From: Peptococcaceae bacterium
GTDB taxonomy: Bacteria > Bacillota > Desulfotomaculia > Desulfotomaculales > JACDOK01
Length of the DNA: 32,136 bases
Reading direction: 5' to 3'
Assembly: GCA_017656185.1 (NCBI GenBank)
Contig: JACDOK010000024.1
Span: 1-32,136 of the forward strand
Shown: one piece after another, positions 19,927 through 21,757 of the stretch
Position numbering within the stretch: the stretch's first letter is position 1
How the letters are laid out: every line of letters begins with the position of its first letter
Translations under genes and position numbers: made by a program
Notes under the pieces: generated by a model
Databases searched by the model: none
Seen by the model: the letters and a program-made list of their open reading frames with translations, nothing else
Told to the model about the DNA's origin: nothing

Positions 19927-20793
19927 ATGGATGTGCCCGAGTTAACCTATCTCAACGGTAAAATCTTTGAGGCCGGAGAAACCCGGATTTCTACCAACGA
20001 CCGGGGGTTCATCTTCGGTGACGGCATCTATGAGGTGGTACGTTCTTACAATGGTAAACTGTTCGGTTTGGAAGAGCACCTGAGGCGTTTGCAGCAAAGC
20101 GCTGATGCCATTGATCTGAAACTACCGCATACCCTTGAGGAGTTTCAAGAACTCGTAGAAACCCTGAACAGAAAAAGTGAGCTGCTTGAGACTTTGGTTT
20201 ATATTCAGGTTACGAGGGGAACGGAACCCCGTAATCATCTTTTTTCTTTGGACTTGCCCCCGAATGTTTTTATCACCATCCGGGCTTTACCTGATATCCC
20301 CGGAGAAATATATACCAAGGGCGTTAGCGCAGTTACTGTTCACGACGGCCGGTGGAACATGTGTCATGTAAAATCCATCTCACTGCTGGCCAATGTTCTG
20401 GCGAAACACGAAGCTCGCAAACAGGGTGCTTACGAGGCTATTTTTGTTCGCGAGAACGGAGTGGTAACCGAGGCCTCCTCCAGTAATGTGTTTATGGTAT
20501 CGGGAGGGATTTTACACACCCACCCGGCTGATAACAGGATTCTAAACGGTATTACCAGGCAATTCATACTTAAGCTCTGCGATGAACTAAACATTCCCAC
20601 TGAAGTACGGCCTTACAGTAAAGACGAATTACGGCGGGCTGATGAGGTTTTCTGTACCAACTCGGTACACGAGGTTACTCCCGTTGTAACTGTCGATGGT
20701 ATGACCATTGGAAGTGGAAGACCCGGCCCCATAACCAACCAATTGATGAGAGCTTACCGGCAGCTGGTCAAATCAGTAATCAGTAATCAGTAA
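19927..20793 (+). CDS. dat: D-amino-acid transaminase (class IV PLP aminotransferase)
   Basis: This enzyme transfers amino groups between D-amino acids and keto acids with pyridoxal phosphate, typically making D-glutamate or D-alanine for peptidoglycan; close relatives are branched-chain aminotransferases. The 288-residue chain shows YLNGKIF, DRGFIFGDGIYEVVR near 24-38, the catalytic lysine Lys149 in HVKSISLLANVLAKHEA (typical of D-enzymes), and VTEASSSNVFMV and GITRQFIL in the cofactor site. The lysine position and the KS-x-x-LL context favour the D-amino-acid enzyme over IlvE, but specificity is inferred. The ATG at 19927 is only three bases after AAGGAG; GTG at 19933 has better spacing. 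The final codons and stop lie in a five-unit heptamer repeat. Confidence 0.87.
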   Translation: MDVPELTYLNGKIFEAGETRISTNDRGFIFGDGIYEVVRSYNGKLFGLEEHLRRLQQSADAIDLKLPHTLEEFQELVETLNRKSELLETLVYIQVTRGTEPRNHLFSLDLPPNVFITIRALPDIPGEIYTKGVSAVTVHDGRWNMCHVKSISLLANVLAKHEARKQGAYEAIFVRENGVVTEASSSNVFMVSGGILHTHPADNRILNGITRQFILKLCDELNIPTEVRPYSKDELRRADEVFCTNSVHEVTPVVTVDGMTIGSGRPGPITNQLMRAYRQLVKSVISNQ

Positions 20794-20805
20794 TCAGTAA
20801 TCGGT
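20771..20805 (+). repeat. Tandem heptamer repeat across the dat stop codon
   Basis: Four perfect AATCAGT units and a fifth AATCGGT run head to tail. The array encodes the last residues of the aminotransferase and its TAA stop, then continues into the intergenic region. Seven is not a multiple of three, so gain or loss of a unit would change the C-terminus. Confidence 0.85.
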
Positions 20806-20859
20806 ATTTCCTGTTTCATGTTTTCTGTTTACTGTTCACTGTTAAGGGAGTGGCTTTTT

Positions 20860-21309
20860 ATGACCGTTTTGCTGGCGGCCATTGGGGCTGATCTGTTAGA
20901 AGAAGCTTTGCAGATTTCCCGCAGGCAGCCCGTCGTGGTCTTCGGCACTATGGATGGTGCCGTTTTACGGCGGCTCGGTACAGATAGGCCGCAGGTCTAC
21001 TTTTATGAAACCGGGTGATGCAGCCCGCGCAGGGTACTTGCCGTTGGCAGGCTGGACGATGTTTGGGTGGAACTGCCTGATGAAATCCCCGATCAAGAAA
21101 CTTTGGTCCGAGCTTTTGAGCAGTACTTCCATCGCCAATGGGACGATGTTCTGGTCGGCGCGGGAAAGCCTTTTGCTTACCAGCTAGCCTGGAACGGATA
21201 TGTGGCAGTTTCCTGTTTGACATCTGCCAGGGCCGGCCTTACGCTGGAAGATTTAACCGCTAACGAACTGAGGCTGGCAACGACAGTCATCAACATTATT
21301 GTAGGCTAG
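20860..21309 (+). CDS. Uncharacterised protein with one in-frame UGA (possible selenocysteine or nonsense mutation)
   Basis: I do not recognise this family. A single reading frame of 150 codons including its final stop runs from the ATG at 20860 (GGGAG nine bases before) to the stop at 21307-21309, broken only by TGA at 21016-21018. Before it the chain is protein-like (LLAAIGADLLEEAL, VVVFGTMDGAVLRRLG, QVYFYETG). After it the same frame continues without phase change as CSPRRVLAVGRLDDVWVELP and on to LTANELRLATTVINIIVG. A frameshift or random open frame would not give this. The UGA is followed directly by a cysteine codon, and a GUU-loop stem starts 18 bases later. It may encode selenocysteine, or it may be a recent nonsense mutation (one base from CGA Arg, TGG Trp or TGC Cys). 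It lies 66 bases after dat and before a terminator, so both are probably co-transcribed. Confidence 0.6.
21037..21051 (+). promoter_or_regulatory. Possible SECIS-like stem after the in-frame UGA
   Basis: CTTGCC and GGCAGG pair over six positions (one G-U) with loop GTT. CAG (21030-21032) and CTG (21052-21054) can extend it after a four-base bulge. The loop G lies 24 bases after the UGA, within the spacing known for bacterial selenocysteine insertion elements, which also carry GU in the apical loop. It is short, so chance is possible. Confidence 0.3.
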
Positions 21310-21351
21310 CTATGAAAAGTAACTGTTGCCAGAGGTGCAGGGAAAAGCAAA

Positions 21352-21379
21352 GCCCCGGGAAATACCGGGGCCCGAATTT
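21352..21379 (+). terminator. Terminator after the UGA-containing gene
   Basis: GCCCCGG/CCGGGGC is a perfect 7-bp GC stem with a six-base loop (21352-21371), followed by a short AATTTT tract, about 45 bases after the stop at 21309. Confidence 0.65.
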
Positions 21380-21757
21380 TGGTATTAAGGCTTGTTCCAG
21401 GCGCATCAAGGTGGGTACGAGAGACCTTGTTGCGGCTGTTCAGAATAGAAGTACGTTAAAGAATGCAGTGAAGACTGCAGGATCCCAAGCAATATACTAG
21501 CGGTGAACAGTGGTAGTCCATTCCGGGCGTATTCGCTCTCATATCGTACGGTAGAACGGGAGAAGAAACATTAATGCGTTGCCCTGATGCGTCTTGAAAC
21601 AAAACCCAAGGTCAATAAGTTCGCCTAACGGTACGGGATTCCTGCCTGTAATCCGCCGGTAAAATATAGCAAGATGTGTGCAGGCTATGATGGTTTACAT
21701 TATCTGCCTTGGCAGTTTGTGCTACAATGAAAAAGAGTTTAGCCTGGGGATGATGTG
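21380..21757 (+). other. Intergenic stretch before the DUF2225 gene
   Basis: I see no gene or known RNA. There is a weak TGCAG/CTGCA stem at 21462-21477 and an extended -10 element TGCTACAAT (TACAAT at 21723-21728) about 35 bases ahead of the next start, which is the likely promoter of the DUF2225 gene. Confidence 0.4.

Follow-up and report, generated by a model that had tools for sequence, protein, structure and literature searches.

The locus and its reading frame

The analysed stretch of DNA (the window) comprises 32,136 nucleotides of contig JACDOK010000024.1 from a Peptococcaceae bacterium and includes, on its forward strand, a frame that runs from an ATG at position 20860 to a TAG ending at 21309. 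The sole internal stop of this frame is the TGA at 21016-21018, which is followed by TGC (Cys), and the translation has the form M...YFYETG*CSPRR...NIIVG*. A plausible ribosome-binding site, AAGGGAG, precedes the ATG. An earlier sequence-only reading of this DNA had described one frame interrupted by a TGA with a Cys codon next to it, and a six-pair stem (CTTGCC-GTT-GGCAGG) at 21037-21051 whose loop starts 24 nt past the UGA, and all these coordinates were found to be exact. The features assigned to the locus are the following:

20844-20850, forward strand: Shine-Dalgarno-like AAGGGAG, 9 nt upstream of the ATG at 20860, read from the sequence.
20860-21309, forward strand: predicted selenoprotein gene for a protein of 149 residues, the 53rd being Sec, assigned from homologs whose frame likewise continues through the UGA, from dN < dS and from the AlphaFold model.
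21016-21018, forward strand: UGA read as Sec53, placed in the loop that follows predicted strand 3 (YFYETG-U), assigned from the column comparison of homologs.
21037-21051, forward strand: bSECIS hairpin with arms 21037-21042 and 21046-21051 and triloop GUU at 21043-21045, conserved and covarying in 42 genes.

The 29 genes of the window end in TAA (15), TAG (10) or TGA (4), and since four of them use UGA as terminator this codon is not reassigned in the code. Tandem GTAATCA units occupy 20764-20803, covering the 3' end of the aminotransferase gene and continuing into the intergenic region behind it. On the other side of the predicted selenoprotein gene, about 440 bases (21310-21754) lack a convincing gene and hold a GC-rich inverted repeat (CCCCGGGAAATACCGGGG) at 21350-21373. 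The search of the window against Rfam returned nothing.

Conservation of the UGA codon and of the downstream hairpin

A homolog search found the family in 27 of 60 relatives, the homologs spanning both halves of the protein; all matches except one hold exactly one stop, which is always TGA and falls at one identical column in 27 of the 28 aligned rows. When the search was extended to the class, homologs were found in 46 of 113 genomes, with exactly one in-frame UGA in 46 of the 48 full-length copies. In the alignment of the 48 distinct homologs the Sec53 column is UGA in 47, all of the UGA copies sharing this same column, and Cys, Arg, Trp, UAA and UAG were found there in none. A hand-made pattern was also used to scan 84,980 genomes, with the third base of the Sec codon left free (TGA, TGY or TGG) because this avoids a bias towards TGA. 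The scan produced 25 matches, of which 24 were homologs, all with TGA (24/24); the only TGC match, of 45 amino acids, was a chance match and not a member of the family. A Cys form at the Sec position, which is usual in selenoproteins without being strictly defining, was therefore found neither among the 48 homologs nor in the 84,980 genomes.

Two paralogs lack the UGA and have Ile (L031, G046:C1:280551-280991) or Ala (L131 2977-3420, genome G062) at the site, and each of the two host genomes also keeps a UGA copy. Both paralogs retain the Cys that lies four residues ahead of the site. In another genome a second, decayed piece of a family member, YLYQCDURADRKTVAVGDLVKVWT, was observed at a distance of about 3.3 kb to the intact gene (L133, G008:C252:4799-4942). 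The residue that follows the UGA is mostly Asp or Glu in the homologs; the Cys next to the UGA, which the sequence-only reading had singled out, is thus present in this gene but not conserved in the family, and it was rejected as a partner residue. For 22 pairs of relatives, and wherever dS was computable, dN was much lower than dS both before and after the UGA.

The hairpin of the window, considered alone, was within chance (z = -0.7, with 40 of 200 shuffled sequences folding equally well), and a longer stretch prefers a different fold. The case is therefore made by comparison. The main clade, with 42 genes, shares a hairpin with at most seven pairs and a triloop; the hairpin starts 17 nt after the UGA and its loop 24 nt after it. 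In this alignment 96.6% of the cells are paired, a value that falls to 21-59% when the partner is slid by one to three bases, and the covariation score is 0.342 versus 0.171 in shuffled alignments, with none of 500 shuffles reaching it. There are 24 compensatory cells, with compensatory changes in four pairs, and RNAalifold returned the same helix unprompted. GCCG is invariant in the hairpin and the loop starts with G, mostly as GU. Of 47 genes, 45 use GCC for Ala61, whose codon lies within the stem, and those of the main clade do so invariably, while GCC accounts for 43% of all Ala codons in these genes. The complete geometry (at least six pairs, G in the first two loop positions and a loop exactly at +24) was found in 38 of the 42 main-clade genes, but at only 0.3% of control codon positions within those genes. 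The published bSECIS model has a spacing of 16-37 nt and G in the first two loop positions (PMC13188914), and both the G at the start of the main-clade loop and its 24 nt spacing agree with it; folded by itself, the hairpin of a few members does not reach the -7.5 kcal/mol limit of the model. The five genes of the second clade also hold a hairpin in agreement with the model, but with the loop 17-18 nt after the UGA. The stem proposed from the single sequence is one case of a conserved, covarying bSECIS-type hairpin.

The genome also contains selA, selB, selC and selD. The tRNA-Sec has the anticodon UCA and a score of 75.7 bits, SelA and SelB adjoin on contig C3, and SelD was detected above the cut-off on contig C4 (L064 1501-2424). 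This SelD has its own in-frame UGA, in the motif TSSGUGGK, and judging by its sequence it is itself a selenoprotein. SelB was above the cut-off in 58 of the 60 relatives.

The conserved UGA, the purifying selection on the frame, the bSECIS hairpin at a fixed distance and the full Sec machinery together argue that SelB and tRNA-Sec would insert selenocysteine at residue 53. The decoding proposed by the sequence-only reading is supported by the UGA column of the homologs, by the four sel genes and by the covarying hairpin: the UGA at 21016-21018 is almost certainly read as Sec, and the status of the protein as a selenoprotein appears near certain, short of protein chemistry.

Selenocysteine insertion competes with termination in bacteria, which leaves some room for a conserved UGA that is read as another amino acid by a near-cognate tRNA, or that acts as an inefficient, programmed stop with a 52-residue main product. 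This is very improbable considering that a complete tRNA-Sec/SelA/SelB/SelD set is encoded in the genome, that other genes of the window end normally at UGA, that much of the fold predicted by AlphaFold lies in the second half of the protein, and that the geometry is canonical for a bSECIS, with G in the first two loop positions and a spacing of 16-37 nt (PMC13188914). A one-base nonsense mutation, a sequencing error or a recent pseudogene would look identical in one sequence with a single stop in an otherwise open frame and a stem within chance, but this plain alternative has a negligible probability and is refuted by homologs from independent genomes, since 47 of the 48, from many genera and several phyla, have UGA and never UAA or UAG at the same column and dN < dS is maintained after it.

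Predicted fold, gene neighbours and possible function

The AlphaFold models reached a pLDDT of 96.2 for the protein of the window and 94.5 for a member of clade 2, with the order strand-helix-strand-helix-strand-strand-helices-strand-helix-strand and Sec in the loop that joins strands 3 and 4. The leading Foldseek matches of both models belong to the PUA-like superfamily; the window model matched EVE and ASCH and the clade-2 model YTH and ASCH, with moderate scores (TM 0.40-0.47, best PDB E 0.01-0.02), and EVE/ASCH proteins were also among the top matches in a viral library. A profile comparison with a few EVE/ASCH sequences gave no match, and a weak one came only with a larger EVE set, in which YFYETGU..RRVLAVGRL aligns in register with MFIYHSGK..KAIVGVARV over the region of strand 3, loop and strand 4; its score was 22.4, compared to a mean of 11.9 and a maximum of 20.9 in 100 shuffles, with an hhalign probability of only 8%. 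The Pfam EVE model PF01878 did not match the protein, and an EVE search over the relatives did not recover the selenoprotein locus. The two models agree in this (TM about 0.46, E about 0.01), and from them the protein is probably a compact domain resembling the PUA-like superfamily (EVE, ASCH, YTH).

The EVE domain (PF01878), the top Foldseek class for the window protein, shares with it the order of strands and helices and a similar strand-loop-strand motif (YFYxxG-loop-VVAVG and YHSG-loop-IVGVA), but it has Lys (YH[ST]GK) at the place of Sec, and the usual EVE opening YWLxKSEP is absent from the protein described here. The predicted PUA-like barrel is also common to ASCH (PF04266; Zymomonas ZmASCH) and to YTH (m6A readers), the latter matched by the clade-2 model at a Foldseek probability of up to 0.99; however, the TM of about 0.44 goes with no significant sequence similarity, and the function of these domains is not transferable. 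EVE domains are described as binders of modified bases and as structurally closest to YTH (PMC7641849). A literature search found nothing linking selenoproteins with EVE, ASCH or PUA-like domains.

None of the gene neighbours is constant, so that the proposed function rests on the resemblance of the fold. Over 40 loci, the most frequent neighbour was a CxxCxxCC protein (YkgJ-like, PF03692), adjacent and co-directional in 11 loci (nine times downstream, twice upstream). Next came an unnamed 106-residue protein in six loci and, in four, the class IV aminotransferase that is also encoded in the window. The protein of about 106 residues has no Pfam match and is often encoded on the opposite strand near the selenoprotein gene (L105, L110, L114, L119, L127 and L132). 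The sequence-only reading had linked the gene to dat, the gene of this aminotransferase, which does lie just upstream in those four of the 40 loci; the arrangement is local and not general, and a functional link to dat was rejected.

The alignment of the main clade contains neither a conserved second Cys nor any other obvious metal site, while clade 2 has CxxxU. Lacking a conserved partner Cys, the main-clade protein is not a thiol-disulfide enzyme of the UxxC/CxxU type, and, as Sec is never swapped for Cys, a thiol alone seems insufficient for its function, which apparently requires selenium. Judging by the resemblance of the fold, the pocket may bind a small ligand, a nucleotide or a modified base, and a selenolate placed there could act as a nucleophile, a redox group or a metal ligand. 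A ligand- or nucleotide-binding pocket with a reactive selenolate is tentatively proposed on this basis. A more specific version, which is speculative and rather unlikely in its full detail, would be a selenium-dependent PUA-like domain of the modified-base-reader type, in which the obligate pocket Sec would act chemically on a nucleotide, a modified base or a ligand bound to nucleic acid, with Cys unable to substitute for it. The two paralogs that persist with Ile or Ala in place of Sec count against the selenoprotein explanation as a whole.

As plausible as the reactive pocket, and likewise short of even odds, is that Sec serves as a metal or metalloid ligand or as a redox group working with the neighbouring CxxCxxCC protein, the PUA-like fold then not being used for nucleic acids or nucleotides. 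The adjacent and co-directional gene in 11 of 40 loci fits this possibility, as does the proposal that many orphan selenoproteins handle metals (PMC13188914), but in the region read the neighbour is absent from 29 of the 40 loci, and neither a second conserved Cys nor another obvious metal site is present in the main clade.

Novelty, distribution and meaning of the family

The scans of Pfam and NCBIfam release 20 gave no match at E 0.1 that recurred consistently across the members, and the curated models of known selenoprotein families in both libraries did not match the whole protein; either half searched separately against NCBIfam also gave no match, and SelD, as a positive control, was recognised in the same scan. 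A sequence search of the PDB found no match. A 2026 review lists 119 selenoprotein families and subfamilies (PMC13188914), among which no listed motif or domain fits and no family is described with this type of fold. The family is therefore very likely new relative to Pfam, NCBIfam release 20 and the 119-family catalogue, compared by listed motifs and domains, and the suggestion of an undescribed selenoprotein family holds against every described family that could be checked. That the protein belongs, unrecognised, to a family already described is improbable: the same review mentions candidates without validation that came from 44,000 groundwater MAGs (PMC13188914), but neither the motifs and domains of the catalogue nor the libraries that recognised SelD gave a consistent match.

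The in-frame UGA, the bSECIS just downstream and the tRNA-Sec/SelA/SelB/SelD set are shared with the bacterial selenoproteins of the review, nearly all of which have a Cys form (PMC13188914), whereas none was found here; the main clade also differs in the absence of UxxC/CxxU and in a fold that is not thioredoxin-like. The combination of a thioredoxin-like fold with UxxC or CxxU, characteristic of thioredoxin-like redox selenoproteins, was not found in the protein.

Glycine reductase protein A (GrdA) and other strongly Sec-dependent selenoproteins show little or no substitution of Sec by Cys, and in this respect they resemble the family described here. The sequence of GrdA is unrelated, however (no match to PF04723), and CxxU is a feature of GrdA. 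Overall, the data are best explained by a selenoprotein that carries Sec53 and whose family is absent from the libraries and the catalogue checked, an explanation to which a probability of about 0.9 is assigned; within it the PUA-like fold is probable and the ligand-site selenolate putative.

The carriers named by the scan of 84,980 genomes were Desulforamulus aquiferis, D. aeronauticus and D. putei, Desulfoscipio geothermicus, Desulfotruncus alcoholivorax and D. arcticus, together with Desulfallas, Desulfovirgula, Desulforudis and uncultured Peptococcaceae. Among 399 sampled genomes of the phylum none outside the class had the family, and no homologs were found on plasmids and phages. The pattern scan nevertheless recovered three MAGs of other phyla, filed as Nitrospira, Desulfobacteraceae and Deltaproteobacteria (L054, L061 and L049), whose members form one supported subclade. 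On the contig filed as Nitrospira the family member adjoins LpxB-, MsbA- and WaaA-like genes, as read from their translations, and horizontal transfer to a Gram-negative host is therefore more likely than a binning error.

A gene of this kind is likely to be called truncated or to be overlooked by annotation pipelines, and most selenoprotein searches, which rely on Cys/Sec pairs, are blind to a family without a Cys form. The present family shows that such selenoprotein families exist, and selenium seems here to be irreplaceable by sulfur. If the PUA-like assignment drawn from the models is true, Sec would be placed on a fold for which it was not known. Why Sec is kept although Cys is cheaper is a question that this family makes directly testable.
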